Shown here: piece after piece, positions 8,531 through 38,100 of the stretch
How the letters are laid out: the number at the start of each line of letters is the position of its first letter
Position numbering within the stretch: position 1 is the first letter of the stretch
Source: a virus
DNA length: 64,000 bases
Virus record (IMG/VR): IMGVR_UViG_3300017788_000016
Coordinates: 1 to 64,000 of that record
Direction: 5' to 3' (one strand)
The notes under the pieces: model-generated
What the model was told of the DNA's origin: nothing
The model's database searches: none
The model's input: the letters and a program-made list of their open reading frames with translations, nothing else
Made by a program: the position numbers and the translations under genes

Positions 8531-8550
8531 AGTGACTCTGAGATTATCTG

Positions 8551-8558: not shown

Positions 8559-8602
8559 GTGGAAGGCTACCAATTAGGAGACCATATATATTTCTAGGAA
8601 TC

Positions 8603-9178
8603 ATGAGACAGACCATCGGACTAATCGCAGGCGGCTTCAAGCCTCTCACTCGTGGACACTGGGCGCTTATTGAGAAGGCCTCAAATGAATGTGACTTGGT
8701 TCACTTAGTCATTTCAAGCAAGGATAGAGAGCGTCCAGGCGAGCTGCCAATTCGATGGGAACAGATGGGTAAGGTTTGGAATGAGTTCATCGTTCCTCGA
8801 CTCCCTAAGAACGTCAAGGCCACTTTTTCAAGTGCTCCAATCCGAAACATAATGGACATTCTCATTTCTGCCAATGCAGACGAGAACAATCTCAACACCT
8901 ATTTCATCTACTCGGATCCGGCCGACATTGCTGCAAACTACCCAGACCGTGCTCGTGAGAAGTACATGAAGAGACTTCTGGGTAATGATCAGATCGTGTT
9001 CAAGGAAATTGAACGCACAGGCGGAAACAACATTTCCGGTACGATCATGAGGAAGCACATTGCCGATGGCGACCTAAAGTCCTTCATCGCAGGCCTACCT
9101 GGCCCGGTTCAGATGTTTGGACCTGAGATTTTCCGAATCCTTGGCGGAACGATTCCCTCTAAGGCAAAGCCTAGCTAG
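8603..9178 (+). CDS. Cytidylyltransferase-like nucleotidyltransferase
   Basis: A 191-residue enzyme of the nucleotidylyltransferase superfamily, which joins a nucleoside monophosphate to a small phosphorylated substrate. The first strand and signature appear as GLIAGGFKPLTRGHW (6-20), where TRGH stands for the usual HxGH, and the second motif is NNISGTIMRKH near 143-153, like ISST-x-x-R. Length is close to phage NMN adenylyltransferase (NadR/NadM-like) proteins; which substrate it uses cannot be told. It ends 5 bp from the convergent next gene. Confidence 0.8.
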   Translation: MRQTIGLIAGGFKPLTRGHWALIEKASNECDLVHLVISSKDRERPGELPIRWEQMGKVWNEFIVPRLPKNVKATFSSAPIRNIMDILISANADENNLNTYFIYSDPADIAANYPDRAREKYMKRLLGNDQIVFKEIERTGGNNISGTIMRKHIADGDLKSFIAGLPGPVQMFGPEIFRILGGTIPSKAKPS

Positions 9179-9183
9179 ACCCG

Positions 9184-10563
9184 TTAGGACTTAACCTTGG
9201 TGGCTCCACGGAGCTTCACCTTGATTTCGTTTGGCTCCACACTGGACTGTGTGTTGCGTACCTCCACAAGGTAGTTTCCTGTGGTGGTTGTAATCTTCAC
9301 GCTAAGCTGCTTCGTGGCTCTTTCCTTGGACCAGAACGGATAGGTCGCAACCACAGAGGTTACGGCACCAAGCTTCTCTAGAGTCTTTTTGGCTGTGGTA
9401 AGGTCAAGCACGTCAACCTTGTCTCCACCACGCTTGCGGACATACCAATATCCGTAACCATAGGCGGCTGCAAGGAATTGCTGAATTTTGACTGCATTGA
9501 AGCTCACAGGCACATTGATGAGGGGCTTCTTTGTTGGGACTCTGTTTGCGTAGTCCGTAATGCCCTTGGCCACAAGGTTCTTGTCGATACCCAGGGCTTC
9601 CACAATGAATTCATCTAGCTTGTGTGGCTGAGGCCTGATTACAGCCTTTGTGCCGACCATCTGACTGATAAAGGCTCCCTTGTAACCGGAATTGGCAAAG
9701 GTAAGACCATCCTCATTCTTAAGGGATACATACATTCGATTTCCGTTCTTGAGCAAAATGTCCATGTCAGAAATCATAGGACCAACGTTCTCGAGAGTGG
9801 TACTAAGAGGTCTCTTGACTCTCTTTGCGCTCGCAATGTTGACGCCAGCTACCATGGCAGGGCTTAGTCCTAGACCCTGGAAAACCTGCTTGGAGAAGTT
9901 GTCGAATTTGCCTTTAACAGCATTGGACATGGACTTGAGAGCCACCTCTTCAAACTTCTGACCCTCATTTCGACCCTGACCATAGACGAACTTGATCTTC
10001 TGAGCAATGCTGGGCTTGGAAATGACATAGGTGTTGAACTTGGTGGAGCTTGCACCAGCCTGACCTGGCTTTATGATTTTCACCACCGAGAGCTTTGCAG
10101 TCTTGAGCATTCGGAGCACGGCGTCTGGACTAGGAGGATCATTGCTGTCCACTGGCTGAATTCTCCAGGCACCCTTCTTTTGACCAGAGGCTCTTAGGGT
10201 GTTGCTAGACTTCTTGATGAGCATGTCCATGGCCGACTTGATGGTCTCAGGCCTTGCTGAGGATGGCATACGATCCTCAACAACCTCTTCCTCAAGCTCC
10301 GTTACAGGAGTCGCAGAAGCAGTGGTGTCATCACCGAAGGTCTCCTCATCGGTCTCACCACGTTCCATTTTCTGAGTGTCATCCCTGAGTGCCGCCAGAA
10401 TTATTGCATCGGGTAGTGCAGCCTCAGATTCTTGCTCAATGTTGGCGGTGGTTTCAACACCAGATTGAGCCATGGTCAGATTGGAAGGTCCAGTTTCCCT
10501 GGGTTCATTTTCGACCTCAGCGAACATTTCCTTCATGCTTTCTCTTAGCGTAATTCGTTTCAT
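9184..10563 (-). CDS. Hypothetical protein, possible PD-(D/E)XK-like fold
   Basis: A 459-residue protein. Residues 1-125 are acidic and probably disordered, starting with a short helix (TLRESMKEMFAE). The central part has an EGQKFEEVALKSM helix, then SDMDILL and YVSLKNEDG, a spacing that recalls the E..D..xK core of PD-(D/E)XK nucleases. The C-terminal third is beta-rich. It stands divergent to the portal gene, close to the head module. The nuclease-like reading is tentative; it could equally be a structural protein. Confidence 0.6.
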   Translation of the reverse strand: MKRITLRESMKEMFAEVENEPRETGPSNLTMAQSGVETTANIEQESEAALPDAIILAALRDDTQKMERGETDEETFGDDTTASATPVTELEEEVVEDRMPSSARPETIKSAMDMLIKKSSNTLRASGQKKGAWRIQPVDSNDPPSPDAVLRMLKTAKLSVVKIIKPGQAGASSTKFNTYVISKPSIAQKIKFVYGQGRNEGQKFEEVALKSMSNAVKGKFDNFSKQVFQGLGLSPAMVAGVNIASAKRVKRPLSTTLENVGPMISDMDILLKNGNRMYVSLKNEDGLTFANSGYKGAFISQMVGTKAVIRPQPHKLDEFIVEALGIDKNLVAKGITDYANRVPTKKPLINVPVSFNAVKIQQFLAAAYGYGYWYVRKRGGDKVDVLDLTTAKKTLEKLGAVTSVVATYPFWSKERATKQLSVKITTTTGNYLVEVRNTQSSVEPNEIKVKLRGATKVKS

Positions 10564-10615: not shown

Positions 10616-13600
10616 TTGGCCAACAACGATTCTTTCTTCAACAGGCTCACGAGACTCTTTAGGTCTGGGCCTTCCATTCAGAGGCGTGTCAAGGGCTACG
10701 ACTATCGGACCTACTATGACAACGACATAATCAGGGGTAACTATGGATACAGGGCACCCTTTCCCTTTGGACGAGAGAGTTCTCCATTCTCGGTGCTTGG
10801 AGCCTATGGTATCCTTGACCGAATGGCCCGTTACAGCGAGTTTGCTGAGATGGAGTGGTGTCTTCATGAAGATACAAAAATTGCTGTTCCCGGTGGCTAT
10901 AAGACCATAAAAGAATTGGCAGAAGAATATGGGACAGACAAGGAGTTCACTGTCTACTCATATGACCACGCAAAGAAGAAGATTGTTCCTGCGGTTGGTA
11001 AGCAGGCAAGACTAACGAGGCACGATCATGCCTGGCGTGTTGTTTTTGACAGCGGCAAGGAAATAATTGGAACGGCCGACCACAGATTGCTTAGGCGAGA
11101 TGGAACCTACAGTACCATCGCAGACCTAAGGCCTGGTGATGCTATGATGCCTTTCTATCGACGTTCGGTGGGTACAGACAGAACAGAGAATCGGACCAAC
11201 CAATATCAGACAATATATTCCATTTCAAGGGAAGACAGCAGATATGGATGGATCGCAGAACATCGCCTTCTAGCCGAACATGTTCTGGGTCGCAAGCTCA
11301 AGGCAAATGAAGTTGTTCACCACAAGAACTTTCTTGCCAATGATAACCGTCTAGAAAATCTTGAGGTCATGACAGAAACCGAGCATCGGCATCTACATGC
11401 CGCTGTTCTTAATGGCAAAAAATGGAGTGCCACCAGCAATGGAGAATGGATTGCCAAATTTAGGAAAAATCACTCTGAGTGGATGAAAAAGAACAATCCG
11501 GCAGAGAGAAAAGACGTTACTTTTGCAAAAGTGCTGCAGTGGTGTGATGCCAACGGCTTCAATTTGTATCGAGTTGCAAAGGCCTTCGATGTATGCCATG
11601 AAACTGTTATCAGCAGAGTTAAGGCAAATGGATTCTCAAGTTTCGAAGATTTCGCAAAGGCCTATAGACCAACTTGGAAAAGTGAAAGCTGGGACAATGA
11701 GGGTTCCAAAAATCCTAGGTACCGAAAGGATATCTCGTACCAAGGCATTTGCAATGCCTACTCAAAAGGAATTAGCAAAAGGCAGCTAGCCAAAAGTCTT
11801 GGCTGTTCTTCTGTTCCAATCGAAAAAAGGCTTAAGGCAGAAGGGTATGCCTCCTGGACAGAATTCGTCAACTCTTACGAGAATCACAAAGTAGTAAAGG
11901 TTGAGTATTACGGGCACATTCCGCTATATGACCTTACTGTGGATGGCTACAAAAACTTTGCCACCGACAGCGTCATTTCCCACAATACTCCCGAGATTGC
12001 GGCTGCCCTAAACATTTTCGCTGATGAGACAGTTTCTGGTGACGAAAAGGGGAAGGCCCTCCACCTCTACTCCAAAAACCCCGAGGTCAAGAAGGCCCTC
12101 GAGGAACTGTACTATGACATTCTGAACATCGACTTCAACCTGAGGCCCTGGGTAAGAAACCTCGTGAAGTACGGTGACTTCTTTCTCTACAACGAGATCA
12201 TCCCAGACATTGGTTTCGTTAACGTCCAACCAATCCCTGTGAATGAGCTTGAGAGAGAAGAAGGCTTCGACAGGGATGACCCATACTCCATTAGATACAA
12301 GTGGCTAACCAGGGGTAACCGCTATCTTGAAAACTGGCAGGTCACCCACATGAGAATGCTAGGAAACGACCTGTTCCTTCCCTATGGCACCTGTCACGAG
12401 AAGACCACCAAGGTTCTAACCTCCTCAGGTATTAAGGAGATACAGCACATAGTGCCTGGCGACGTGGTTCTCTCTTTTGATCTCAAGTCGCAGAAAAAAG
12501 TCAAGTCACCAGTGTTGGGCGTCAAAAATTCAGGCTTCAAGAACTGTTTTGAATTTAGAACCAGACACAATTTCCTTAGAACTTCCAAGGAACATCAAAT
12601 ACTTGTATGGGATTCTTCTAGAGAGAAATTTGACTACAAAAGTGCTGGTGAGCTTCGGCTGGGTGACAAGCTTGTGATCAGCAAAGAGCACAAAATAGAA
12701 AATTCCAAGATCAAGATAGACAAAACCGCCCCTTCGGGCATTAACAAGAATGGCTATTGGAACAGTGTTTCTAATATTCCAGATGAGGTCACACCAGATT
12801 TCGCTCGCTTGTTTGGTTTTTTGATGGGCGATGGATGGATTACTGGCAATCAGGTCTTTTTTGCTAATGGCATTGACCTCAAACAAAACGAACGCTATTC
12901 TCTGTTGCTTGAAAAATTCTCTGGAAAGAAGGCAAACTCTGAGTGCCGCCAAGGCACGCAGACTGTGCTCTCCTCAAAAATGTTTGGTGAGATCCTGAAA
13001 CGAATGGGATTTGCTGGCAAGGCAACCACCAAAAGAGTTCCTTCTTGGGTTTTTGGAGCTTCTGAGGATCTCCGTCTTGCTTTCCTGGAGGGATTTCATG
13101 ATGCAGATGGTAGCTCTTTTGTTGATAAGTGGAATTGCGAACGCCGCACCTTTGAGCTATCCAATTATGACTTGATTAAGGACCTCAAGGCCCTTGCCCA
13201 GACGCTTGGCTTCAAAACAGGCAAGATAACAGAAAGAAAGTCTAGAACATTTGCAACTGGAATTGAGGAAAACGGTTCTTTCCGCTCGTTCAAAACCGTT
13301 AGCCCTTCCTATGTGTTTTATTGGTTTGCAGCACAAAACAAGCAAGTTAAAAAGCATGATGTGACCAATAGAGTTTCTGACGATTTCCTAATTGAGCCAA
13401 TTGTGGCGATACAAAACGTTGGGGAACACGAAACCTACGACATTTACGTCCAGGACAACAACCACAATTTCTTTGCCAACGGCATTGTCACCCACAATTC
13501 CCTTTTGGAACCTGCCAGAAGAATCTGTATGCAGCTAAGAATGGCTGAGGATCACATGTTGCTCTATCGCGTGGTAAGATCCCCAGAGAGACGTGTGTTC

Positions 13601-14998
13601 TATATCGACGTTGGTAACGTTGCCCCAAATGACGTTCCTGCCTACATGGAAGCTGTTAAGCAGACTCTCCGTGCAAAGGACTTGGTTGACAAGTCCACCG
13701 GACGCATCGACCAGAGAAACAACTCGGTTTCCATCATCGATGACTACTTCCTGCCTGTGAGAGGTAATCAGACCGGCACAAAGATCGATACCCTGGCTGG
13801 TGGTCAGAATGCCACAGCCGTTGAGGACGTAAAGTATCTCCAGCAGAAGCTCTTTGCGGCTCTACAGGTTCCAAAGCCCTACCTTAACTTCGATGAAAAC
13901 CTTTCGGCAAAGGCCAGCTTGGCCCAGCAGGACATTAGGTTCTCCAGAACCGTGTCTATTCTCCAGAGGGTCATCATTGCAGAGCTTAACAAGATGGGCA
14001 TGATCCACCTCTATGCCAGAGGCTTTGACGGCGAGGACCTCATCAACTTTGAGTTGCGCCTGAGCAACCCTTCTACTGTGGCAATGCAACAGAAACTTGA
14101 GGCCATTGCAACCAAGTTCGAAATTGCTGGTGCTGCAAAGGAAACCAAGCTGGTAGACGAGGACTGGATTCAGAGAAAGGTTCTTGAGCTAACCGAGGAT
14201 GAAATCATCAAAATTGAGGCGGGCCGCAGGAGAGACAAGATCCGTGAGGTAGAAATCGAGGCGGTGTCGGTTGCTGAGAATCTTCCAAAGCCAGATGCCA
14301 CCATCGATCCTTTCCATCCTTCCAATTATCAGATAGGTGGTGGAGACGTGGCAAAGAATCCCCCGGTGGAGCAGCCTGCGCAAACCGTCATGGGAATTGG
14401 AACCCCATCCCCTGCTGGTGGCGGAGCCCCACTTGGACAGCCCCAAGCCCCTCAGGGTCCAGCTCTGGGTGCCCCAATTTCGGCTACTCCTTTCGCCTCT
14501 AGACAAAAGGAAAAGAAATCCCGAAGGGTTGGTCTTGGCGGGCGCAACAACCTTTCCATGCCTGACTTCTCCTCAATGCTCTCATCCAAGAACCGCTCCC
14601 TTACTGACGTATACGATAGCGAGACCATAAATCTCAGACAGTCCATTACCGAGGACATTGAGCTTGACATTAGGTCTGCTCCTTTCCTACCAAATGAAAT
14701 GCGGTCCATCTTCAAGACCCTGGATACGCACTTCGAGAAGAACTACGCCAATGTGTCAGGACAGAGAAAGCTTCTCAGGGAGCTAAAGGAGCAGGTTCCA
14801 ACAATCGACTTCGAGTTGACCGACGACGCCGACGAGGATGAGAAGTCCTCTGACGACTCCGAGCGTGAGGATTCCGAGGATTCCTTGCTGACGGAAACCC
14901 TTGAGGGCGTGATCAAGAAGGATGAGGAGGCCTCTGAGGACCCACCTGAGAACACCCCTAGGAAGCTGACCGATATCGATCTTTCGACTTTGGACTGA
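10616..14998 (+). CDS. 20: Portal protein (T4 gp20-like) with two inteins
   Basis: A 1460-residue precursor. After removing two inteins about 715 residues remain, matching the T4 gp20 family, the 12-fold ring through which DNA is packaged. Portal marks include MARYSEFAEMEW-TPEIAAALNIFADE, LRPWVRNLVKYGDFFLYNEI, LPYGT-SLLEPARRI, and [11 protein letters not shown]. The tail beyond about residue 1240 is longer than in T4, with Pro/Gly linkers and a very acidic end that may be disordered. The TTG start at 10616 is preferred because AGAGG lies just upstream. It opens the head operon. Both inteins must splice out to give a working portal. Confidence 0.93.
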   Translation: MANNDSFFNRLTRLFRSGPSIQRRVKGYDYRTYYDNDIIRGNYGYRAPFPFGRESSPFSVLGAYGILDRMARYSEFAEMEWCLHEDTKIAVPGGYKTIKELAEEYGTDKEFTVYSYDHAKKKIVPAVGKQARLTRHDHAWRVVFDSGKEIIGTADHRLLRRDGTYSTIADLRPGDAMMPFYRRSVGTDRTENRTNQYQTIYSISREDSRYGWIAEHRLLAEHVLGRKLKANEVVHHKNFLANDNRLENLEVMTETEHRHLHAAVLNGKKWSATSNGEWIAKFRKNHSEWMKKNNPAERKDVTFAKVLQWCDANGFNLYRVAKAFDVCHETVISRVKANGFSSFEDFAKAYRPTWKSESWDNEGSKNPRYRKDISYQGICNAYSKGISKRQLAKSLGCSSVPIEKRLKAEGYASWTEFVNSYENHKVVKVEYYGHIPLYDLTVDGYKNFATDSVISHNTPEIAAALNIFADETVSGDEKGKALHLYSKNPEVKKALEELYYDILNIDFNLRPWVRNLVKYGDFFLYNEIIPDIGFVNVQPIPVNELEREEGFDRDDPYSIRYKWLTRGNRYLENWQVTHMRMLGNDLFLPYGTCHEKTTKVLTSSGIKEIQHIVPGDVVLSFDLKSQKKVKSPVLGVKNSGFKNCFEFRTRHNFLRTSKEHQILVWDSSREKFDYKSAGELRLGDKLVISKEHKIENSKIKIDKTAPSGINKNGYWNSVSNIPDEVTPDFARLFGFLMGDGWITGNQVFFANGIDLKQNERYSLLLEKFSGKKANSECRQGTQTVLSSKMFGEILKRMGFAGKATTKRVPSWVFGASEDLRLAFLEGFHDADGSSFVDKWNCERRTFELSNYDLIKDLKALAQTLGFKTGKITERKSRTFATGIEENGSFRSFKTVSPSYVFYWFAAQNKQVKKHDVTNRVSDDFLIEPIVAIQNVGEHETYDIYVQDNNHNFFANGIVTHNSLLEPARRICMQLRMAEDHMLLYRVVRSPERRVFYIDVGNVAPNDVPAYMEAVKQTLRAKDLVDKSTGRIDQRNNSVSIIDDYFLPVRGNQTGTKIDTLAGGQNATAVEDVKYLQQKLFAALQVPKPYLNFDENLSAKASLAQQDIRFSRTVSILQRVIIAELNKMGMIHLYARGFDGEDLINFELRLSNPSTVAMQQKLEAIATKFEIAGAAKETKLVDEDWIQRKVLELTEDEIIKIEAGRRRDKIREVEIEAVSVAENLPKPDATIDPFHPSNYQIGGGDVAKNPPVEQPAQTVMGIGTPSPAGGGAPLGQPQAPQGPALGAPISATPFASRQKEKKSRRVGLGGRNNLSMPDFSSMLSSKNRSLTDVYDSETINLRQSITEDIELDIRSAPFLPNEMRSIFKTLDTHFEKNYANVSGQRKLLRELKEQVPTIDFELTDDADEDEKSSDDSEREDSEDSLLTETLEGVIKKDEEASEDPPENTPRKLTDIDLSTLD
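10859..11986 (+). mobile_element. Portal intein 1 with HNH endonuclease
   Basis: Residues 82-457 (376 aa) form an intein that starts with Cys (CLHEDTKIAVPGG), has block B GTADH, and ends VISHN before Thr. The inner domain carries an HNH motif (VVHHKNFLANDNRLENLEVM), followed by helix-turn-helix-like repeats at about 305-345 and 378-420. The joined exteins read FAEMEW-TPEIAAAL, as expected for a gp20-type portal. Confidence 0.92.
12392..13498 (+). mobile_element. Portal intein 2 with LAGLIDADG endonuclease
   Basis: Residues 593-961 (369 aa) form a second intein starting with Cys (CHEKTTKVLTSSG), with block B TSKEH and ending GIVTHN before Ser. Two LAGLIDADG motifs are seen, LFGFLMGDGW near 732 and LEGFHDADGS near 824. 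The exteins rejoin as LFLPYGT-SLLEPARRI, the conserved gp20 text. Confidence 0.93.
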
Positions 14999-15025
14999 CC
15001 TAGGTCGCAAATGCAAAATCGTGTG

Positions 15026-15033
15026 TCTATTTA
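15026..15033 (+). promoter_or_regulatory. Candidate late-promoter box
   Basis: TCTATTTA lies 38 bp before the ATG at 15071, in the 72-bp gap after the portal gene. It is similar to boxes before other structural genes. No transcript evidence. Confidence 0.25.
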
Positions 15034-15070
15034 ACATTTGAATTGACCTGTAAAGAATGGGTAATTGCGA

Positions 15071-15943
15071 ATGTACAAGCACAACAAAAAGAGAAACATC
15101 GGCCTGATTAGTGAGTTTTTTTCTCGTTATATGGCCGCAGCCTTTGTGGATGGCAGACACGCCGACATAGAAAAGGCCAATGCTGTTTGGCGCAAGTACA
15201 TCAACCCTAAGACAGAGGCCTATCGGGAGTATGTGCTATTCAATGCTCTCCATGAGACCAGTCTCAAGGACCGCAATGTGGCTCACTCTCTTTTGGAGAA
15301 GGTCAAGTCCGAGGTAAAGAAGCAGTCCCAGGATCGTCTTGACAAGGAGAAGAATTCTCTTATCAACGAGATCAACTCTGCCCTCAAGGACCCTGAGTTT
15401 TTTGGTCGTTCCGTGGAAGACTACCGGGACATGGCTTCTATCCAGCTTTTGATGAATGCCTGGAGAGGTATTGGCTTCAAGGGCTCTTTGTCGGAGTTGG
15501 CAACGCTTGAGGAAAGCGTCTTGGACTCCATGCTCAAGACCAAGGTCCAGGTGACCGATGCCGCAGCCGATTTTTCGTCGGAGGACGTGGACGGACTTGT
15601 GGTTCGTTTTATGACCGAGAAGTTTAATCGCAAGTATGGCTCGAGCCTCAACAAGGAGCAGTCTGACATTGTTCGTCTCTTTGCTTTCTCTAGCAAGGAC
15701 AATGACGCCAAGGAATCCCTGGTTCGGCTGTTGGAAACCATCAGGAAAACAACCCTCGAAGTCCTGGATAGCAGAACCCTAAAGGAGAGCATTGGTGTTC
15801 CCCTGAGCAAGAAGCTCCTTGAGATAAAGGAAATGCTGTCCACTGGTGGCAAGTATGGGAATGTTCAGGACCTGTCCGAAGATACGATTTCCTTCTACAT
15901 GACAGTCTCGAAACTGAAAGAGGAAATGGAGAGTTCTGAATGA
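15071..15943 (+). CDS. Hypothetical head-module protein between portal and protease
   Basis: A 290-residue, mostly helical protein. ATG 15071 is preferred to the TTG two codons upstream. In T4 the genes between portal and protease encode prohead core proteins (gp67, gp68). This one holds that position and overlaps the protease gene by 4 bp, but it is much longer and shows no clear similarity by eye. A role in prohead assembly is inferred from context only. Confidence 0.65.
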   Translation: MYKHNKKRNIGLISEFFSRYMAAAFVDGRHADIEKANAVWRKYINPKTEAYREYVLFNALHETSLKDRNVAHSLLEKVKSEVKKQSQDRLDKEKNSLINEINSALKDPEFFGRSVEDYRDMASIQLLMNAWRGIGFKGSLSELATLEESVLDSMLKTKVQVTDAAADFSSEDVDGLVVRFMTEKFNRKYGSSLNKEQSDIVRLFAFSSKDNDAKESLVRLLETIRKTTLEVLDSRTLKESIGVPLSKKLLEIKEMLSTGGKYGNVQDLSEDTISFYMTVSKLKEEMESSE

Positions 15944-16554
15944 AACTACTACGAGAATTCAAGGAATTTGATTACGAGGTAATCTCTGAGGCTGCTGTGG
16001 CTGGCGACGGCCGTCCTGGTCGTCTCTTTGTTAAGGGCGTGGTGCAAATGGCCGACACCATCAACCAGAACGGCAGAATTTACCCAAAGCCAATTCTGTT
16101 CCGTGAGGTTGAGAACTATAAGAAGGTCATCGAGGAGCGCCGGGCAACCGGAGAGCTGGACCATGCCGATGAGCCTGTGGTTAACCTCAAGAACGTGAGC
16201 CACCGCTTTACCGAAATCTGGACCGAGGGAAATGTGGTCTTTGGAAAGATTGAGATCCTTCCAACCCCTATGGGCAACATTGCTCGTGCCCTCATCGAGT
16301 CCGGCGTCAAGATTGGCATTTCCTCTAGAGCCCTTGGTTCGGTGAGGAATCGAGGCGATGCAGACATTGTTGAGGACGATCTCCATCTGGTTTGCTGGGA
16401 CCTTGTTAGCGAGCCCTCTACTCCTGGTGCCTTTATGATGAAGGAAGCCAGAGATATCGATCCAAAGATCCTAAATTCCATATTCTCTAAGTCCGATCGC
16501 ATTGACCGTGTGGCTAATGAGATTCTGGGCATCAAGAAGGTAGGAAAGCTATGA
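15940..16554 (+). CDS. 21: Prohead protease (T4 gp21-like)
   Basis: A 204-residue serine protease that cleaves scaffold and capsid precursors inside the prohead. The catalytic His is in GELDHADEP (His75) and the Ser in KIGISSRALGS (Ser128/129), with RIYPKPILFREV and the FGKIEILPTPMGN strand typical of the family. Its own N-terminus contains VISE-AAVAG at 14-21, an I-x-E site where self-cleavage could occur. It overlaps both neighbours by 4 bp. Confidence 0.93.
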   Translation: MKLLREFKEFDYEVISEAAVAGDGRPGRLFVKGVVQMADTINQNGRIYPKPILFREVENYKKVIEERRATGELDHADEPVVNLKNVSHRFTEIWTEGNVVFGKIEILPTPMGNIARALIESGVKIGISSRALGSVRNRGDADIVEDDLHLVCWDLVSEPSTPGAFMMKEARDIDPKILNSIFSKSDRIDRVANEILGIKKVGKL

Positions 16555-20169: not shown

Positions 20170-22074
20170 ATGAAATCATTCACATTGTCGCAGTTGGCAG
20201 AGGGCGTGCACCGCAGAAGTCTTGGTGCAGAGACTCCTCGTTTGCTTAAGAAGTGGGGTGCAACTGGCCTCCTTGAGGGTATGAAGGGCGTCTCTAGGGA
20301 CAACATGGCCATTCTCCTTGAGAACCAGGCAGCCCAGATGCTCAAGGAGCAGAACAGCCTTTCCACTGGCGGTGGTAACCTCGTCAGCTCGGGTCAGGTT
20401 GTCGGCTTTACGAACGTCGCATTCCCTATCGTAAGAAGGGTTTTCGCCGGTCTTATCGCCAACTCCCTTGTGTCGGTTCAGCCAATGAGCCTTCCAACCG
20501 GTCTTCTGTTCTACCTCGACTACACCTACGGCTCGAACGTTGGTGGCGCAGCAGGTGTGACCCTTGACTCCGCTGCTGCATCCTCGGTTTACACCGATGG
20601 TCAGTCGGTGTTCAACAACCCAAGAGGCGCAGGAGTTCGCTCCGGTTCTCTTGCGGCTGGTGGCTACCATGACCTCGTGGGCACGGGCTTCTCGAAGGTC
20701 CACAAGTTCAGCCAGCTCCTGTCGTCCTCGCTAGCCGATATCGGTTACTGGGCCTCGGGTTCTATCTGGACGGCAGCCTCCACTGCAACCGTTGCAGGTG
20801 CGGCTGACTTCACCGGGTTCAATGCTCGCTATGCAGGCTATGACTCGAAGATCGAGACCGACCTCACGGACGGCGTGCTTGACTTCTCGTTCATGATGCT
20901 CCCAACCTCGACCATCACCTCGACCATCACAGGCGCAGACCTTTCCAACCTTGACCAGATTGCCATCACTGGCTTCGGTACCCTAGGTGGTAGCGTTCAG
21001 GCCTGGGGCGAGCAGTACCAACAGGGTACGAACGTTCTCAACCTCCGTAAGCTGAACCGCAGAGGTAACTGGTCGTCCTCGACCGGTCTCTTCACGCCGG
21101 ACCCACTTAACGGCTCGCACGTTCTCTTTGTGCTTCGTATCGCCAATGCAGGTACGAACCCACAGCCAGTTGCAGCAGCAACCTCGGGCTCCGCAGCAAT
21201 CTCTGATTCGCTTAGCGTGAACTCCGATGGCGCAGCACTTACCATCCCAAGCTTCGAGTCTAACTTCGCAGTTGATGCGTCGCCAAAGATCCCAGAGGTC
21301 GATATCCGTATCGAGTCCACCTCGGTAACTGCAACGACCCGCAAGCTGCGTGCTCGTTGGTCGCCAGAAATGGCTCAGGACCTTACGGCCTTCTACTCGA
21401 TTGACATCGAGGTCGAGCTTACGAACATGCTCTCTGAGATGATCACTCTCGACATCGACCGTGAAATCCTTAACGACCTGCTTAGCCAGGCTGGCGCAGC
21501 AAACCTGTTCTGGTCCAGAGCCCCAGGCAAGATCGTTAACAAGGTCACCGGTGCAGAGGCTCTCCAGTCCACCACCCTGGCCCCAGGCCCAATGGCATTC
21601 ACCAACATCCAAGAGTGGTACCAGACCCTCATCGAGACCATCTCGGATGCAGGTAACACCATCTACAAGAAGACCCTCAGAGGTTCTGCAAACTTCCTGG
21701 TAACCAGCCCAGACGTGTGCACCATCCTTGAGCACCTTGTCTCGTACAAGGCCTCCTACCGTCTCGACAGCGACGGCCAGGTGAGAGACAGCATGTCGGT
21801 CGGCGCTGAGAGCGTTGGTACCCTTAACAACAGATACACTGTGTACAAGGATCCATACTTCCCAAGCAACAAGATCCTCGTTGGTCTTAAGGGCAACACC
21901 TTCCTCGAGAGCGGCTACATCTACGCCCCATACGTTCCGCTCATCATGTCGCCTGTGATCTATGCACAGGAAGACTTCACCCCACGCAAGGGCGTGATGA
22001 CTCGCTACGGCAAGCGCATGGTCAGAAATGACTTCTACGCAACCGTGACGGTGCTCGATATGGCACTTATATAG
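20170..22074 (+). CDS. 23: Major capsid protein (T4 gp23-like)
   Basis: A 634-residue HK97-fold capsid precursor. Family marks are VVGFTNVAFPIVRRVFAGLIAN, LVSVQPMSLPTGLLFYLDY and the C-terminal GVMTRYGKRMVRNDFYATVTV. The N-terminal about 60 residues form a pro-region with candidate cleavage sites LLE-N (51-53) and MLKE-Q (58-61). It is well biased in codon use, ends with a terminator 40 bp downstream, and is preceded by an AGGAG ribosome site. Confidence 0.95.
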   Translation: MKSFTLSQLAEGVHRRSLGAETPRLLKKWGATGLLEGMKGVSRDNMAILLENQAAQMLKEQNSLSTGGGNLVSSGQVVGFTNVAFPIVRRVFAGLIANSLVSVQPMSLPTGLLFYLDYTYGSNVGGAAGVTLDSAAASSVYTDGQSVFNNPRGAGVRSGSLAAGGYHDLVGTGFSKVHKFSQLLSSSLADIGYWASGSIWTAASTATVAGAADFTGFNARYAGYDSKIETDLTDGVLDFSFMMLPTSTITSTITGADLSNLDQIAITGFGTLGGSVQAWGEQYQQGTNVLNLRKLNRRGNWSSSTGLFTPDPLNGSHVLFVLRIANAGTNPQPVAAATSGSAAISDSLSVNSDGAALTIPSFESNFAVDASPKIPEVDIRIESTSVTATTRKLRARWSPEMAQDLTAFYSIDIEVELTNMLSEMITLDIDREILNDLLSQAGAANLFWSRAPGKIVNKVTGAEALQSTTLAPGPMAFTNIQEWYQTLIETISDAGNTIYKKTLRGSANFLVTSPDVCTILEHLVSYKASYRLDSDGQVRDSMSVGAESVGTLNNRYTVYKDPYFPSNKILVGLKGNTFLESGYIYAPYVPLIMSPVIYAQEDFTPRKGVMTRYGKRMVRNDFYATVTVLDMALI

Positions 22075-22113
22075 GGCCTTTGACCTGAATACAGGTCAGC
22101 CATTCTGAACGAA

Positions 22114-22139
22114 GGCGGTATGAAAGTACCGCCTTTTTT
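22114..22139 (+). terminator. Rho-independent terminator after capsid gene
   Basis: Stem GGCGGTA / TACCGCC around a 6-base loop, followed by TTTTTT. It closes the head operon. Confidence 0.88.
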
Positions 22140-22209: not shown

Positions 22210-22872
22210 ATGAAAGCAGTTTACCACGAAAAGGCAAATGAGGGCGGGGTGTATCGTATTTTGAACATTGTCAATGGCAAGGTTTACTACGGCTCCACCT
22301 ATAGATTCAAAAAGCGATTTGACGGACACTTTGCTCAACTAGAGGCAGGAACACACGGCAACACTTACTTGCTAAATGAGTACAGAAAGTATGGTGCAAG
22401 CAACTTCATTTTTGAGGTGGTTGAAGCTGTGGAAAATGATGCGAAAAAGCGTCTTGCTGTTGAGCAAACCTATCTAGACAAGTTCTATGACAACCAGAAG
22501 CAGTGCATGAATTTGCGAAAACAAGCTTGTGACTCTAGAATTGGTAAGAAACAGCGAGGTCCAAGCAATCGAGCAACAGATGGTCGCTGTAAGTCCCCCT
22601 CTCTGGAGGTTCTGCAAAAGAGGTCCAAGGGCCTCCGTGAGGCCATGTCCACCCCGGAGGCAAGGCAGAGGGCTAGGGATAACTGTAAGAATGGTCTATG
22701 GAAGAATCATAGCTCTGGTGTGACCCTAAGGAACATCCTCACCCAGGAGGAAGTGGTGGTTAAGGGTTCCCTAAGGGAGTTCGCCCTAACCAGAGGCTTG
22801 AGCTACAAGGCTCTTCACCTTATGGTAAATGGAAAAACCAAGAGTAGTGGAGGATGGGCCAGAACAATTTGA
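22210..22872 (+). CDS. GIY-YIG homing endonuclease
   Basis: A 220-residue free-standing endonuclease. The GIY-YIG core is seen as GGVYRILN and VYYGSTYRFKKRFDGH (10-40), then NEYRKYGASNFIFEVVE, and a Glu in the AVEQTYLDKFYD helix. The C-terminal part (about 165-220) is a NUMOD-like DNA-binding repeat with FALTRGLSYKALHLMVNG. It starts after AGGAGG at 22199-22204 and sits just behind the capsid gene, a usual homing site. It likely cuts a capsid-gene neighbourhood lacking it. Confidence 0.88.
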   Translation: MKAVYHEKANEGGVYRILNIVNGKVYYGSTYRFKKRFDGHFAQLEAGTHGNTYLLNEYRKYGASNFIFEVVEAVENDAKKRLAVEQTYLDKFYDNQKQCMNLRKQACDSRIGKKQRGPSNRATDGRCKSPSLEVLQKRSKGLREAMSTPEARQRARDNCKNGLWKNHSSGVTLRNILTQEEVVVKGSLREFALTRGLSYKALHLMVNGKTKSSGGWARTI

Positions 22873-22938: not shown

Positions 22939-24273
22939 ATGGCCCCACCCATCAGAATGCCTCCTCCAATTGAAATTCAACGCCTAACGGCGTGGCTGCA
23001 ACTTCTGATTTCCTTTGGTATTCTGTGCTATTTCGTCTCCTGTCTAGGTGGTTGCGTGCGGAGACCTGACATTCCAGAGGACGCCTCGGTTGTGGTGGAT
23101 GTTCATTTCTCACCTGATGCCGTCCCTTGCGATCCAATGGATCCAGAGAGTCTAGCCATAGACTTCTATAACTGTGGTCGGTGTGGAAGAACCTGCGACC
23201 CAATTGTGGCCGACAACTGTGAGAGTGGAGTTTGTAGATGCGGAAATGATCCACCCTGCAATCCTCTTACTCAGGGTTGTCGGTTTGGTCTTTGCAGAGA
23301 CGTTGATTCCTCGGGTAGAATTTGTGAGTTTGATGGAAACTGCCCAGGCGGTCTTGGAGGTGGCTTCGGGTGCATTGCAGGACACTGCACCAGAATTGCA
23401 TGCACACCAGAACAGTGTGACGGACTCGACAATGACTGCGATGGAACGGTTGATGGAACTGTCTCTGGGCCCCTTGCAAGGTTCTGCTATAGCAGAAACG
23501 AAGGTGTTGAAACCATTTTGCCACCTCCATGTGAGAGAGGGGTTCAGTTGTGCGTTATGGGTGAGTGGACCGAGTGTGAGGGTGCGATTCCTCCTAGATC
23601 CGAGGCAGGTACCTTTGCCTGCGATGGTATCGACAACAATTGTGACGGATGCATTGACTCCAATATGGTGGGAGACATGTGCAGTCTTCCGGTAACCCCG
23701 CCCTTCGACATTGTATATGCCATCGATTCCTCAGGTAGTATGGCGGACGTTACAAACACCGTAATCAATGCCACCAGAGCTTTCTCTGATCGTTTCGCAA
23801 TGAACCCGAACTTTCGATTTGCCATTGTCTTGGTTCCGGGTGGAGCCGAGGAGGTTGGTGTTGGGGTTGCACAGAGCTACATTCTCAGTCCCCTTGTTTC
23901 TTATGACGTTTTCATCCGGCTTCTCATTCCAGAGAACATTCCCTTGACTGCTGGTCTTGAGCCCACATGGGATGTTGTCTATGAGCTTGGAACTGGAGAA
24001 TTGGATGTTGGATGGAGACCCGGTGCTGCCAGAATCATCGTTCTCTTTACAGATGAGCACGGGCAGTCCTATAGGTCGGTTGGTGTGGATGAGGTAGACA
24101 TGTGCCGTGCTCTCACAAACGGAGAATCCCTCTACTACTTCTCAGAGCTTGAGGATCGTGAGGATTGGGATGATTGTGGTACTTGGTCTCCTCTTACCAA
24201 CGTGTATGAGCAAGTGCTTATGGATCTCAATCGAGTCATTGCCGATCCTTGCAACCATCGCTCGACCCCCTAA
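22939..24273 (+). CDS. Secreted lipoprotein with MopE-like motifs and VWA domain
   Basis: A 444-residue protein of cellular type. A hydrophobic segment (WLQLLISFGILCYFV, 19-33) ends in a lipobox-like LGGC with Cys39. Residues 79-150 are Cys-rich (YNCGRCGRTC). Two acidic Cys motifs follow, CDGLDNDCDGTVDG near 160 and CDGIDNNCDGCID near 228, like putative metal-binding MopE repeats. A von Willebrand A domain starts at about 256 with the MIDAS motif DSSGS (263-267) and a later FTDE Asp. Such proteins are typical of Myxococcota. No upstream ribosome site is visible at ATG 22939. It may coat the infected host surface; the function is unknown. Confidence 0.85.
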   Translation: MAPPIRMPPPIEIQRLTAWLQLLISFGILCYFVSCLGGCVRRPDIPEDASVVVDVHFSPDAVPCDPMDPESLAIDFYNCGRCGRTCDPIVADNCESGVCRCGNDPPCNPLTQGCRFGLCRDVDSSGRICEFDGNCPGGLGGGFGCIAGHCTRIACTPEQCDGLDNDCDGTVDGTVSGPLARFCYSRNEGVETILPPPCERGVQLCVMGEWTECEGAIPPRSEAGTFACDGIDNNCDGCIDSNMVGDMCSLPVTPPFDIVYAIDSSGSMADVTNTVINATRAFSDRFAMNPNFRFAIVLVPGGAEEVGVGVAQSYILSPLVSYDVFIRLLIPENIPLTAGLEPTWDVVYELGTGELDVGWRPGAARIIVLFTDEHGQSYRSVGVDEVDMCRALTNGESLYYFSELEDREDWDDCGTWSPLTNVYEQVLMDLNRVIADPCNHRSTP

Positions 24274-24356: not shown

Positions 24357-25184
24357 GTGACCGCCCGCCGACAGCGTACCCGAACCCAAAAAGCCGAGGC
24401 GCTTCTTAAGAAGCACAATGGAGAGGTCAGAATTGACAACGTTCTTTTTGTTCCCGTCAATTCTCCTAGGCGAAACTCGGATGGAACATTCGAGGGTGTC
24501 CTTATGCAGGCCCCGTGGGGTCACTGCCTAACGAGCACCACGACGGATTGGGACCAGGGCCCTTACCATCGTGGGCATCCTTTTGGGTACGAAATCATTG
24601 TTCCCTATCGGCGCATGACCGATAACCCACCTAAGCTCTGGGGCCAGCCTGTTCATTATAGGGAAATTTGCTCTCCTGAGGATCCTGAGGTTCGCTGGTT
24701 CTGCATGCAGCGGCTTTTTAGCATAGAACGGGACATGCCGGATTCCTTTGACGCAAAGCAGAAGAGACGTGTTTTCGACGCTTGCGACGAATTCGTCCAA
24801 ATGTATTTGAGTCTCGACAAGGAGCGAGAAGAGCGCCAATTGGAACAACGTGCCAAGCGGGCTGGTTTCGATAGCGTTGAGGACTATGCCAAGAACCTTG
24901 AGGAGCAGATCGAGGCTCGGAAGTATCTGAAGCAGGCCTCAAAGCAGGTAAAGCTCTATTTCAAACTCAAAAAGGAACTTTCTGCCTTTGAGAGTCATCA
25001 GGCAAGAATCATGTCTGGCGATACCTCTCATGTTCTGAACAGGGAAATGCTCAGGACGCTTTCCAATGCCATTAGCAAATTGACTCAAGTCAATAGAGTG
25101 CTTGGTCGATTTCGCAATGATGTACCTGATCCTGAAGTCTATAGACTTCAAAAAACTCTAGGATCTCTGGTGAGGAGCAAGTAA
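24357..25184 (+). CDS. Hypothetical protein, paralog family member A
   Basis: A 275-residue protein with a globular N-terminal half (about 1-125, Trp/Pro/Tyr-rich) and a helical, charged C-terminal half. The joint contains GFDSVEDYAKNLEEQIEAR, and a final helix has LSNAISKLTQVNRVLGRF. The next two genes share this plan. GTG start with a GGAG site. It overlaps the next gene as TAATG. No known family; the N-terminal halves differ more than the C-terminal halves, as if one scaffold bears different heads. Confidence 0.7.
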   Translation: MTARRQRTRTQKAEALLKKHNGEVRIDNVLFVPVNSPRRNSDGTFEGVLMQAPWGHCLTSTTTDWDQGPYHRGHPFGYEIIVPYRRMTDNPPKLWGQPVHYREICSPEDPEVRWFCMQRLFSIERDMPDSFDAKQKRRVFDACDEFVQMYLSLDKEREERQLEQRAKRAGFDSVEDYAKNLEEQIEARKYLKQASKQVKLYFKLKKELSAFESHQARIMSGDTSHVLNREMLRTLSNAISKLTQVNRVLGRFRNDVPDPEVYRLQKTLGSLVRSK

Positions 25185-25897
25185 TGGGATATCGTAGCAC
25201 GATTCAAACCGACGAGTGTCGTGGTGGTTGGGAATTTGCACCTCACAACGACACATGTCTTACGCAGTGGTCAAGTGTCTTTAGTAGGGCCTATGGGCGT
25301 TTTACAGTTCGCTATAGTGTTGGGTGGCAGGAGAATGATTGCTGTGCCGTTTTTTGGAATGAGGACGGTGTACAAATCGCCAACTATCTCATTTGCGATG
25401 ATCCCAAAATGGAGCTGGCCCGACTCCGCCTGGCAGGCGCATATCGCGCCCGGATGCCGCCCAGCTTCATGGCACGGCTTCCTAGACCGAATGTTGTTAG
25501 GTCCTTCACCGCAGAGGAAGGTAAGGAATTTGTTGAGGCCGTTCTAGCTGACAAGGCGGCTTTCCTTAAGGCCAAGAGGCTAGAAGCTAAAAAGGCTCAG
25601 GAAGAAGAAGCCAAGAACCTAGGCTTGAGCCTAGTGGACTACAAGAAGAAACGGGGTCAGGAACGAAAGGAGAGGATCCTTGAGGCCCGTGCCGCTCGAG
25701 CCGAGGAAACTGTGGATGCCCTCCTCAGGATCACGCCTCACATTACCCGGCTTAAGGATGCCATGGCCCGCTTTGAAAAGGCATGCCTTGAGTGTGGCGA
25801 ACTTAACATGAAGAACATTGATCCCACCATTGAACGGCTGACATATGTCACCAAGCGAGTCAATGGATGGGCAAAGTACAAAAAGAACGGAGAATGA
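25184..25897 (+). CDS. Hypothetical protein, paralog family member B
   Basis: A 237-residue protein. The N-terminal part has several Trp and Cys residues (GGWEFAPHNDTCLTQW, VGWQENDCCAVFW). The C-terminal part repeats the family plan with NLGLSLVDYKKKRGQERKER followed by helices and a closing IERLTYVTKRVNGW. It is coupled to member A by a TAATG overlap and lies 3 bp before member C. Function unknown. Confidence 0.7.
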   Translation: MGYRSTIQTDECRGGWEFAPHNDTCLTQWSSVFSRAYGRFTVRYSVGWQENDCCAVFWNEDGVQIANYLICDDPKMELARLRLAGAYRARMPPSFMARLPRPNVVRSFTAEEGKEFVEAVLADKAAFLKAKRLEAKKAQEEEAKNLGLSLVDYKKKRGQERKERILEARAARAEETVDALLRITPHITRLKDAMARFEKACLECGELNMKNIDPTIERLTYVTKRVNGWAKYKKNGE

Positions 25898-25900
25898 AAT

Positions 25901-26716
25901 ATGCCTGTGCTGCTTGAAGACGAACAGCTTTCTTACAAATATTCCTCGATCAATTCCTCGATCAGGTTTTCGTGCGACACCTCATACTGGTCTGTGCTCC
26001 CCGGAGCCTTGAATCAAACCATCGACTATGGGGATTGGACAATTTCTGCTGAGGACATGTCTAAACGGCTTGTAAGTATCTATTCGTACTCTTCTCGCAA
26101 GGCCTACAAGCTGACGATCCTGAATCGTTTCAGTCAGGCCCGCTATGATGTGTGGTTTGATTCTTGTCGTCTGTGTAGGGAGCGTCTTCCGGCCCTTTGT
26201 GTTCCTAACAATTCAAATGAATATACGGTCCAAAGTGCCTGGCGTGTGAAGCTTCTTGCGACGCATGTACCTCCGCATCCCGTGATCTCAAAGGAAGTCT
26301 GGTTTAACCTTCTGGACACCATCGAGGAGGTCAAGAAGAAGGAGTGTGCCCAGCGCCGAAAGGAAATGGATAAGGCCCGTAAGCAGAAGCTCGACAAAGA
26401 GCTAGCCGCAAATGGGCAAAGCCTTGAGGAATACCGCAAGGAGAAGCTGGAGGCCCGTGAGGAAAAGAGGCAGACCGTAAGTAACACCAAGGAAGCGAAG
26501 TATGTAGAAAAGCTGGCCGAGGTGGTTCAGGTTATGCGTAAGCTGGACAGTCACGTCATGCGTTTCAAGCAGATTGTGGAAGCCAGCAACGAAAATGAGA
26601 AGATTGTCCTTCCTCCTAGCCTTATTGGCTTCAAGAACAAGATTTGCCTTGCTGAGTTGGCAATTTCCAGGATCCTTCCGGTAGATCCCGACAAGGCCAA
26701 GAAAAAGAGGAAATGA
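25901..26716 (+). CDS. Hypothetical protein, paralog family member C
   Basis: A 271-residue protein. The N-terminal half is beta-rich with Ser/Tyr repeats (KYSSINSSIRFSCDTSYW). The C-terminal half has GQSLEEYRKEKLEAREEKRQ and a helix ending KICLAELAISRILP. It shares order and spacing with members A and B. It closes on KAKKKRK. Function unknown. Confidence 0.7.
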   Translation: MPVLLEDEQLSYKYSSINSSIRFSCDTSYWSVLPGALNQTIDYGDWTISAEDMSKRLVSIYSYSSRKAYKLTILNRFSQARYDVWFDSCRLCRERLPALCVPNNSNEYTVQSAWRVKLLATHVPPHPVISKEVWFNLLDTIEEVKKKECAQRRKEMDKARKQKLDKELAANGQSLEEYRKEKLEAREEKRQTVSNTKEAKYVEKLAEVVQVMRKLDSHVMRFKQIVEASNENEKIVLPPSLIGFKNKICLAELAISRILPVDPDKAKKKRK

Positions 26717-31239: not shown

Positions 31240-32148
31240 ATGGAATTCACATATGATGGGCATTCGCTGAAAAGCGGCATTTACAAAATTACAAACAAAC
31301 AAAATGGCAGAAGGTATTTTGGTTCTGCAAAGGAGTTTAAAAGACGCTGGAATCAACATGCCAATTCCCTGAGGAGGGGTAAACATCAAAACAAATTCCT
31401 GCAGGCAGACTTCAACAAGTGCGGAGAAGAAGCCTTCTTATTTGAGGTCTTGGAGGTTATGAACGGGACCAAGGAAGAACGTCTCCTAAGGGAAGAGGTG
31501 TATCTCAAGGAGCACTTCGACAATGGGAGTGAGTGTTATAACCTAATGTCCAAGGCAGTTTCTAGGGAAGGCCTTAAGGCCAAGAATCCTGAGGAAACTC
31601 GAAGGAAAATATCTGAGGCCTCCAAGAGGAACTGGAGCGATCCAGAATATAAGAGTAGGGTTTCCAGGTCCATTCAAAGGGCCCTGAGCGACCCTGAGGT
31701 TCAGGAAAAGAAACGAGAAAGCCACCTGCGTTCCTGGGATGGCAATGAGAACCGTCGAAAGAAAAGGTCTGAGCATTCCAAGAAAATGATGGCCGACCCC
31801 AAACACAAGGAGAAGGTGGTTTCAAGCCTTAGGGAGCATCAACCCCGCAGCCGGGAAACCTACAAAAAAAGAATAAGCGAGGACCAGGACCTGAAACAGA
31901 AGATGCAAGAAATTGGAAGAAAGAATATCGCCAAGAGAAATGCCACACAACCCGTTAAGACCTATGGTTCCCTTAAGGCCCCGGACGGAACCATTTATGC
32001 GAACGTGTCTCATGTTCCAACTTTTGCAAAAGAACATGGACTAACAAAGACGGCCCTGTACCAGTTGTTGCTTGGTAGAACCAAGTCTCACAAGGGCTGG
32101 AAACTGCTACGATTTCCCCTGGGGCAGAACTACGCCTTAACTACTTAG
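31240..32148 (+). CDS. GIY-YIG homing endonuclease
   Basis: A 302-residue endonuclease set between the two neck genes. The core reads SGIYKITNKQNGRRYFGSAKEFKRRW, with a Glu in LLREEVYLKEHF. Residues about 105-225 are NUMOD3-like repeats (EETRRKISEASKRNW, EHSKKMMADPKHKEKV), and the end has an HTH-like FAKEHGLTKTALYQLLLG and KSHKGW. It is clearly related to the endonuclease at 45463, sharing RRYxGSA and NKFLQADF. AGGA lies upstream of the start. Confidence 0.9.
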   Translation: MEFTYDGHSLKSGIYKITNKQNGRRYFGSAKEFKRRWNQHANSLRRGKHQNKFLQADFNKCGEEAFLFEVLEVMNGTKEERLLREEVYLKEHFDNGSECYNLMSKAVSREGLKAKNPEETRRKISEASKRNWSDPEYKSRVSRSIQRALSDPEVQEKKRESHLRSWDGNENRRKKRSEHSKKMMADPKHKEKVVSSLREHQPRSRETYKKRISEDQDLKQKMQEIGRKNIAKRNATQPVKTYGSLKAPDGTIYANVSHVPTFAKEHGLTKTALYQLLLGRTKSHKGWKLLRFPLGQNYALTT

Positions 32149-35132: not shown

Positions 35133-38100
35133 ATGGCAGATCAGATATTCAATTTTCCAGGATTTTACGACAGAGAAATCGATCTCACAGCCCGTGTTGC
35201 GTCGCCAGTTGGCGTACCAGGAGGTGTGGTCGGTGCTTCTCTGCGTGGCCCGGCTTTCGTACCAGTTACCATTGGTTCTTTCAGCGATTTCGAGACGAAA
35301 TTTGGCGGTCTATCTTCCAAATTGGCGGCTCCCTATGCTGTTGAAAAGTTCCTCCAGAACAGAAACGCCCTGACCTTCGTCAGGGTACTGGGCGCTGGTG
35401 TTAACGAAACCTCGGCCCAGTTCGAGGCAACCAGAACCCAGGGCATCGTTCGCAATGCCGGTTTCAAGGTGAGCGGCACGGTAGCTACCGGAGATACCCG
35501 TCACCAGGGAAGCGTACAGTTCCTCGTTGCAAAGCACCTTCTGACTGGCTCCGAAGTGTTCGGTATGCCAATGTTCACCGACAACCGCTCCTTCCTTCAG
35601 AGTGGTTCCTCCGATGAGGTCTATCTCGTAAGAGGCGAAATCTTCACGGCACACGACACCCGCATCATGGCCCTAAGCCACAATGAAAGCTGGGCAGCCG
35701 GTGTGGACGATGCTGCAACCCTAAGCCCAACGGCCAAGTTCTTCAAGCTCGTCATCTCCTCCTCGCAGGGTGCAACCTTCGGTACCTCTGATGGTTTCAA
35801 TGGCCTCAGAATCTACTCGGCATCCTTCGATCCAGACTCAGATCTCTACTTCGGCAAGCTTCTTAACACGGACCCAAGCAAGTTCGAGACCGAGAGACAT
35901 TTCCTTCACGCAGACTTTGCAGTGGATGCCCAGATTGCCTCGGCTCACACCGGCACCAATGCCGTAGTTGTGGCCTCGGGTTCGGCAAACACCTCCTCGA
36001 CTTCTGGAAACACCTCCCTATTGTTCAGAGAGGCCTTCGGTCGCTTTGACACCAGGTACAAGACCCCAAAGACCCCATGGTTCATCTCGCAGCCTTACGG
36101 TTCCACCGAGCATAACCTATTCCAGATTGAGGCTCTTGACGACGGTGAGTATGCAAACACGCAGTTCAAGATTTCCATTGTCAACATCGTGGCCTCGGTT
36201 AACCCACGCTACGAGTACGGCACCTTCACGGTGGTCGTAAGAAAGTTTGACGACTCCGACCTTAACCCAGCAGTTCTTGAGCAGTTCACGAACGTCACCC
36301 TTGATTTCTCGGCAGACAACTACATTGCCAAGGTGATTGGTGATGCAAAGGTCGAATTCAAGTTCGACGTAGAGGACCAGGGTGACCGCAAGCTGGTTCG
36401 TTCTGGCAAGTTCCCAAATCTCTCGAAGCATATTCGTGTGGTTGTGAATGAGGGCGTCGAAAAGAAGAGTATTCCTGCCTCCTGCCTTCCATTCGGTTTC
36501 AGAGGAGCCCCGGTTCTCAACACCAACTCCCTTTTGGGTGATATCACTGGTTCGGGTGGTTTCAGCTCCCTGACTCGTCTTGGTGCAAGCGGCTCGGCTC
36601 TTGACCCACGCCTCCTGGCAGCAGTCGTTCCACCAATTCCTTTCCGCTTCAAGGTGACCAGAGGTCAGGTTGCCACGGGTTCCGGTCTTACCGGCGCTCC
36701 TGGTCCCTCGGAAATCACCGACAACCGCTTCTATTGGGGCGTGAAGTTCGAGCGTAACAACGGGGACGTTCTAAACACCAACATCAACAACAAGCTGAAT
36801 GCCATCGTGTCCTCCTTCACGAAGATGCCTGGCATTGACAAGCTCGATGTGGCTGTGACCGGAGCCTTCTCGGACACCTTCAACAACAACAAGTTCACCC
36901 TGGCTCGTGTGGCCCTTGGCAATGCCTCCATGGCACAAATCACTGCCTCGGCAAACACGCACATGAGAGAGGCCTGCTATATCCGCAATGGTATCCCAGA
37001 TGCCACGGAATACAAGATCACAGACGGTTCCACCAGCAGAATCACTCTGGCAAGCCTTATCCACAGCGGCACCATGCCAACCCTCTTCAATAAGTTCAGC
37101 GACTTTGCGAAGTTCACGGTATTCCTGAATGGTGGTTTCGATGGTGTCAACTCCCTTGATGCCAACGCAATCAACTTCAATGACCGCTCGACCTCCACTG
37201 AGGCAAGAGGTGCAACTTACGGTAACTCCAACGCAAACTTCACCTCGCCTGGTTTTGCATTCAACCAGAACGGCGTGGGCATTGTGAACAATCAGGTTGC
37301 CTCCATCAAAGTTGCGGCAGATATCATCACCAATCCAATCACCTCGAACATCAACCTCCTAACCGTGCCTGGTCAGAGAGAGCCTCTGGTTGTGGACTAC
37401 GTTTCTGACGTGGCTTCCAGCTTCGGTCTGGCAATGTTCCTAATGGACATTCCAAACTATAACAGCAGCGGCGACCGTATCTTCGACGGTGAGACAGCAA
37501 ACAGCTCGACCTATGTGGATGTTGAGCAGACTGCAAATGCTTTCGAGACCAGAGCCCTGGATAACACCCTTGTCACGACCTACTTCCCAGACATTGTTAT
37601 GGATGATAGCTCCACCGGCAAGAAAGTGACTGTTCCGGCTTCCATTGCAGGTCTTGCAGCCATTGCCTACAACGACAGGGTTGCTCACCCATGGTTTGCT
37701 CCTGCTGGTTTCAACCGTGCAGCACTCAACTTTGTGAGCCTCACAAAGACACGCCTCAAGCAGAGCGAGAGAGACCGTGTTTTCCAGGCCCGCATTAACC
37801 CAATCGTCAAGTTCCCAAATGAGGGCTTCGTGATTTTTTCGCAGAAGACCCTTGATGGAAACCAGACCGCCCTCGACAGCATCAACGTTCAGAGAATGGT
37901 GCTTGATGTTGAAAGACAGGTTATCGACGTTGGTAACCGCATGATCTTCGAAAACATCACGCCAGACCTCTACACGGAGTTTGTATCTAAGGTTTCGCCA
38001 ATCCTTGCAAACGTGCAGAGCCGTCAGGGTCTCAAGCAGTTCAAGGCTGTGTGCGACGACACAAACAACACTGAGCTGGACAGAGAGAACAACAGAATGA

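Follow-up and report, generated by a model that had tools for sequence, protein, structure and literature searches.

A phage-encoded predicted lipoprotein family combining MopE-like repeats with an integrin-beta-like VWA domain

An uncultivated T4-like phage encodes a predicted exported lipoprotein in which MopE-like repeats are joined to a C-terminal VWA domain, and the same architecture (lipobox, MopE repeats, VWA) is found on about 85 further IMG/VR contigs, representing approximately 53 lineages at 70% identity. The gene lies in the first 64,000 nucleotides (hereafter, the window) of the IMG/VR record IMGVR_UViG_3300017788_000016, which comprises 65,371 bases. An earlier note, made from the letters of the window, had described a phage-encoded VWA lipoprotein with MopE-like motifs, likely located at the host cell surface; this observation proved correct, and it applies more widely than its author could know. 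From its sequence features, the protein looks built for lipid-anchored display on the host surface. Our preferred reading, to which we assign a probability of roughly 0.45, is that it works as a lipoprotein at the surface, where it binds an acidic ligand in the course of infection and remodels the envelope or excludes further phages.

Architecture of the VWA-MopE protein

The 444-amino acid (aa) ORF was confirmed at exactly 22939–24273, on the plus strand, in the ORF list of the window. From the N-terminus, the protein consists of a signal segment with LGGC, a Cys-rich region with two CDGxDNxCDG motifs, and a VWA domain. The N-terminal sequence, MAPPIRMPPPIEIQRLTAWLQLLISFGILCYFVSCLGGC, contains a hydrophobic core followed by LGGC; the predicted signal peptide (residues 1–38; 22939–23052) ends in LGG, and the next residue, the presumed lipidated Cys39 (23053–23055), is conserved almost without exception across the aligned family. 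Under a strict rule of our own, which calls for both a hydrophobic core and a lipobox, the protein has the signal peptide with a lipobox Cys that is characteristic of bacterial lipoproteins, and so do 79 of the 86 relatives with complete starts, the remaining 7 missing only narrowly. The signal segment noticed previously is thus a feature of essentially all complete relatives. These nearest relatives are all in phages, yet they are predicted lipoproteins themselves, and tail genes are not consistently adjacent to them.

The Cys-rich putative stalk (residues 40–253; 23056–23697) contains many invariant Cys residues and is modelled with low confidence. The two motifs reported in it are indeed present, CDGLDNDCDG at residues 160–169 (23416–23445) and CDGIDNNCDG at residues 228–237 (23620–23649), the latter 34 aa ahead of the MIDAS. 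The Pfam family PF11617 matches the window protein with E = 6e-7 (30.0 bits, against a curated cut-off of 27) and matches 30 of the 31 family members; a degenerate DNA pattern for the motif has only two matches in the window, at 23416 and 23620, and none in shuffled sequences. The gap between the last motif and the MIDAS is 23–28 aa in most members and 34 aa in the clade of the window, with larger values in a few members under the motif rule used. This near-constant distance suggests that the geometry of the stalk and the head is fixed.

The predicted VWA domain spans residues 254–438 (23698–24252). The window protein alone matches the Pfam VWA family PF00092 only below the threshold (E = 0.015), but 19 of the 31 family members match it, the family profile retrieves integrin alpha-X (E = 1.5e-9) and integrin beta-8 (E = 2.7e-6), and the AlphaFold2 model reaches pLDDT >90 across most of the domain, so that the VWA assignment is secure. 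The model is confident only in this domain, with pLDDT mostly <60 in the stalk up to about residue 190 and 64–84 for residues 190 to 260.

The MIDAS had been described as intact, which calls for a correction at loop 2, where an invariant Glu is found instead of the canonical Thr. The motifs D-x-S-x-S, E-x-x-x-D and D-E-x-x-Q show essentially no variation among 91 phage members, even at 20–45% identity between members. In the window protein, loop 1 is D263-S-S265-G-S267 (23725–23739), with the Asp and both Ser kept in 90–91 of the 91 members; loop 2 is E341-P-T-W-D345 (23959–23973), with the Glu and Asp in all 91; and loop 3 is T371-D-E-H-G-Q-S (24049–24069), with the Asp and Glu in 90 and the Gln in 88. 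All three of these features, namely, a VWA (Rossmann-like) fold, D-x-S-x-S in loop 1 and Glu instead of Thr in loop 2, are found together.

The best PDB matches of the model are integrin beta headpieces (fold search, E = 2.4e-9), the integrin beta I-like domain (PF00362) being the best-matching fold, and the full-length profile ranks integrin beta-8 first; PF00362 itself is matched below E = 1e-3 by 1 of the 31 members. Both the phage head and the integrin domain have D-x-S-x-S, a Glu in loop 2 with a conserved Asp after it, and W-R-x-x-A...T-D; the loop-2 Glu aligns with the Glu of EGGFDA in integrin beta-8, after which the shared W-R-x-x-A...T-D stretch follows. They are only 13–16% identical, and the phage protein has no hybrid, PSI or EGF domains and no alpha subunit. 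We read the head as carrying an integrin-beta-I-type MIDAS, rather than one of the textbook alpha-I type, with predicted metal binding.

A conserved family in phages

The relatives were collected in two scans of IMG/VR (contigs L002–L043 and L046–L093) with MopE and MIDAS peptides as the bait. A VWA profile finds 93 proteins, which correspond, once duplicate fetches are removed, to the approximately 85 contigs besides that of the window; altogether, there are 56 lineages at 70% identity, two or three of them not clearly viral. Because both peptides served as bait, the search itself accounts in part for the constant pairing of MopE repeats with the MIDAS; it does not account for the invariant residues of loops 2 and 3, the lipobox or the spacing. 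The members range from 369 to 814 aa. In 8 of the 9 pairs for which it was computable, dN/dS is 0.03–0.09 (0.23 in the ninth, L046–L054; two further pairs were saturated), and purifying selection thus acts on the gene in phages. The tree places the window protein with those of L046, L054 and L004 (support 97/90); its deep branches are weak.

The VWA protein has no match among the PHROGs, NCBIfam or PADLOC families, and tblastn with three family members as queries found no relatives among the INPHARED cultured phages. A role as a defence-system protein was considered and rejected because the VWA protein matches nothing in PADLOC. The best viral fold match, the 266-aa BFVD entry A0A516KYY5 (29% identical, E = 3.3e-18), carries no name or recorded function and is probably a member of the family. 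No paper on phage VWA or MopE lipoproteins was found in the open-licence papers searched, and the family is, apparently, large, strongly conserved and undescribed.

Some of the carrier contigs have further features. The 267-kb phage contig L037 encodes, near the VWA-MopE lipoprotein, a second MopE-repeat protein without a VWA match (7455–9899 and 14811–16502), and L127, the 90-kb phage contig behind L008, contains an ORF (12108–13139) with a glycine-rich motif that by eye resembles FtsZ/tubulin.

Genomic context

The window encodes a gp23-type major capsid protein (20170–22074, plus strand; PF07068, E = 7.6e-79), a head maturation protease and two sheath-like proteins, which identify the carrier as a T4-like myovirus. 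Among the 29 carrier records tested, 12 have gp23 on the same contig; the L008 record lacks gp23, and T4-like replication genes are still evident by inspection of its ORFs. On the plus strand of the window, a strong terminator-like hairpin of 11 pairs with a T tail (22111–22136) lies just 3' of the capsid gene, and a GIY-YIG homing endonuclease gene (22210–22872) lies between the capsid and VWA genes. L016 and L046, the nearest phages, have the same order from the capsid gene to the VWA gene, L046 with an unrelated 482-aa ORF at the junction, and L054 retains the downstream block; the ORFs inserted between the two genes in this clade are of homing type and differ from one another, and the GIY-YIG gene is such an insertion and no part of the VWA module. 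Outside the clade of the window, the gene changes place and is often found among replication genes.

The suggestion that the VWA gene has its own promoter did not hold: there is no promoter-like site in the 66 bases upstream of the gene, sigma-70-like sites in the region are no more numerous than in shuffled sequences, and the T4 late-promoter motif occurs at the chance level.

Elsewhere in the window, sequence similar to the GIY-YIG endonuclease is also found within 31240–32148 and 45463–46506. A 933-aa chaperonin (2319–5120, minus strand; Cpn60, E = 1.2e-52) with a LAGLIDADG/Hom_end region at about residues 314–384 probably represents a phage GroEL with an intein inserted in it. The sheath-like genes (35133–38195 and 38246–41230) are in tandem and encode proteins of about 1000 aa each, approximately twice the usual size. 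Three tandem ORFs at 24357–26716, possibly paralogues, have similar charged helical C-terminal parts and belong to no clear family, and a C-5 cytosine DNA methylase is encoded at 46576–47493 (E = 3.9e-46).

Proposed role at the host surface

Under our preferred reading, infected cells would produce the VWA-MopE protein and export it; after lipidation at Cys39, it would stay anchored in the envelope, most probably at the cell surface. The stalk built from the MopE-like repeats, braced by disulphides and probably binding Ca2+, would raise the C-terminal VWA head above the membrane. Glu341 would complete the MIDAS of this head, in which a divalent metal would sit, and the head would bind an acidic group of a partner, as the integrin beta-I domain does. 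Some surface molecule would then be hidden, occupied, held or helped to be cut, and the surface of the infected cell would be remodelled; in many phages, the head may work beside a co-encoded exported protease. The likeliest benefit would be that superinfection is stopped, or that progeny are not lost onto infected cells or debris.

Such a benefit is suggested by analogy. The known superinfection-exclusion lipoproteins, such as T5 Llp, are small, phage-encoded, exported proteins with a lipobox and without VWA or MopE parts. The protein described here resembles them in its lipobox, export signal and phage origin, whereas no homology between the two was found, nor was any other exclusion lipoprotein found to be homologous. 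The variable site of the gene, in the capsid region of some phages and among the replication genes of others, speaks against this reading.

A connection with proteolysis comes from other carriers. An exported trypsin-like protein (PF13365) is a neighbour of the gene in 14 lineages, and 43 of the 48 such proteins have the His and GxSG motifs; an HExxH family with an export signal is found near the gene in 9 lineages. Of the 23 lineages with one of these proteases nearby, 15 have it within 1 kb of the gene, where 5.9 would be expected (none of 20,000 random draws was as high). Neither family was found in the flanking sequence available for 33 of the 56 lineages, and no gene for a trypsin-like or HExxH exported protease was found in the window. 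Protease order and strand vary among lineages, with about five arrangements, and the lineages with an upstream, opposite-strand trypsin gene share ancestry, so that the number of independent cases is closer to five than to fifteen. The trypsin-like neighbours match the protease parts of PADLOC defence models weakly. Conceivably, a whole group of large T4-like phages has a dedicated surface system in which a lipoprotein receptor, integrin-beta-like and dependent on metal, is borne on a MopE stalk and acts jointly with exported serine or zinc proteases to cut or hold host surface proteins during infection, an elaboration that we consider rather doubtful. To our knowledge, this would be the first viral integrin-like receptor–protease pair aimed at bacteria.

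Alternative interpretations

The same neighbourhoods could be taken as an envelope-breaking module, in which the lipoprotein, a membrane-anchored partner and exported proteases weaken the outer envelope late in infection and aid lysis. In 26 loci from 6 lineages (the L005–L030 type), the start of the gene overlaps an upstream gene for a small protein with one TM segment and a beta-rich outer domain, an arrangement reminiscent of an i-spanin/o-spanin pair, and the gene is flanked by proteases; in the window, the gene is downstream of the late gene gp23. Against this, a protein of 369–814 aa with a conserved predicted metal-binding head is unlike o-spanins, the gene is located among replication genes in many phages, and the TM partner, for which the fold search gave no significant match, is not seen adjoining the window gene; nor does the window contain the arrangement of a short lipoprotein overlapping an i-spanin gene. 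All told, we regard this explanation as unlikely. In L005–L030 type loci, for example, L015 (4826–5615), a small exported ORF and the single-TM protein precede the VWA gene, and trypsin-like lipoproteins are encoded in the opposite orientation on one side or on both, making up a four-part envelope module.

Slightly less likely again is an adhesin that makes infected cells stick to cells or particles, or maintains a host trait such as gliding or predation, and so spreads the phage. MIDAS lipoproteins do act in this manner in Bdellovibrio, where Bd0875 of B. bacteriovorus, a lipobox MIDAS protein at the cell surface, requires the MIDAS Asp and a nearby Glu for its activity (PMC11003981). By analogy, Bd0875 is the closest experimental precedent for our preferred reading as well. 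Compared by description rather than by sequence, Bd0875 and Bd1483 share with the phage protein the lipobox and a VWA domain with the MIDAS Asp and Glu; in these proteins, the VWA domain is inserted in a small beta domain formed by both termini, and Bd0875 has a cap (PMC11003981), whereas the phage protein is the product of a viral gene with a C-terminal VWA domain on a MopE-repeat stalk. No adhesion ligand is in view, and the fusion is not widespread as a host protein in the genomes searched.

This last point bears on the earlier assertion that proteins of this type are common in Myxococcota, which stands for the 30-aa motif but not for the fused protein. MopE motifs are frequent in one Myxococcota genome (PF11617 matches 13 times in Paraliomyxa and not at all in 14 control genomes). 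The MopE–VWA fusion, however, was found in at least 1 of 379 Myxococcota genomes, and there on a phage-like contig whose genes match the phage loci, so that a common Myxococcota host protein was rejected as an explanation; such counts from genome searches are lower bounds because 7–8 candidates were scored per genome. The other Myxococcota VWA matches among the candidates scored lack the MopE motif and mostly fall outside the phage group of the window in the tree, in which deep branches are weak. The protein is thus a weak pointer to its host: the motif is common in Myxococcota, the fusion is not typical of the group, and Myxococcota are a possible host group. The phrog_2 family was uninformative as a phage marker because it also matches bacterial controls. 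Among the 545 candidates listed in a scan of genome contigs, at least 2 were confirmed. One MAG, labelled Parcubacteria, encodes a protein with the full architecture that is 50% identical to phage members; the contig has 62% GC and ordinary bacterial genes and is cell-like, and the bin may be mixed.

That the gene product is a virion protein, decorating the tail or head and binding a receptor through the VWA head, appears improbable. In the window clade, the gene comes after gp23, and the weaker VWA fold matches include a virion structural protein of a phage; elsewhere, the neighbours are not consistently structural, there is no PHROG match to indicate a virion family, and the export signal and lipobox are present throughout the family, so that the protein would cross the inner membrane, away from assembly.

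The name of PF11617, Cu-binding_MopE, invites the idea of a copper-binding protein that aids metal uptake, which is very improbable, given that the copper site of MopE* consists of His132, His203 and kynurenine 130 (PMC3423442) rather than the CDGxDNxCDG motif, that searches of the PDB matched only VWA domains and not the MopE* structure, and that, by inspection, the motif spacing resembles that of a calcium loop. The MopE of Methylococcus capsulatus and other PF11617 proteins share with the phage protein the 30-aa Cys/Asp motif, repeated 2–9 times; no further similarity was found, and the His-His-kynurenine site lies outside the motif. The spacing D-x-D-x-D-G-x-x-D with flanking Cys residues looks more like a calcium loop with a stabilising disulphide, and the protein likely binds metal, though not specifically copper.

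Implications

It appears that large, uncultivated phages devote coding capacity to a host-surface protein that is complex, strongly conserved and unnamed in the annotation libraries used. Thanks to the invariant residues, the exclusion or remodelling and adhesin ideas are directly testable by point mutation. If the protein is an adhesin, these phages change how infected cells stick to each other; if it indeed excludes phages or remodels the envelope, it would represent a large class of counter-competition genes.
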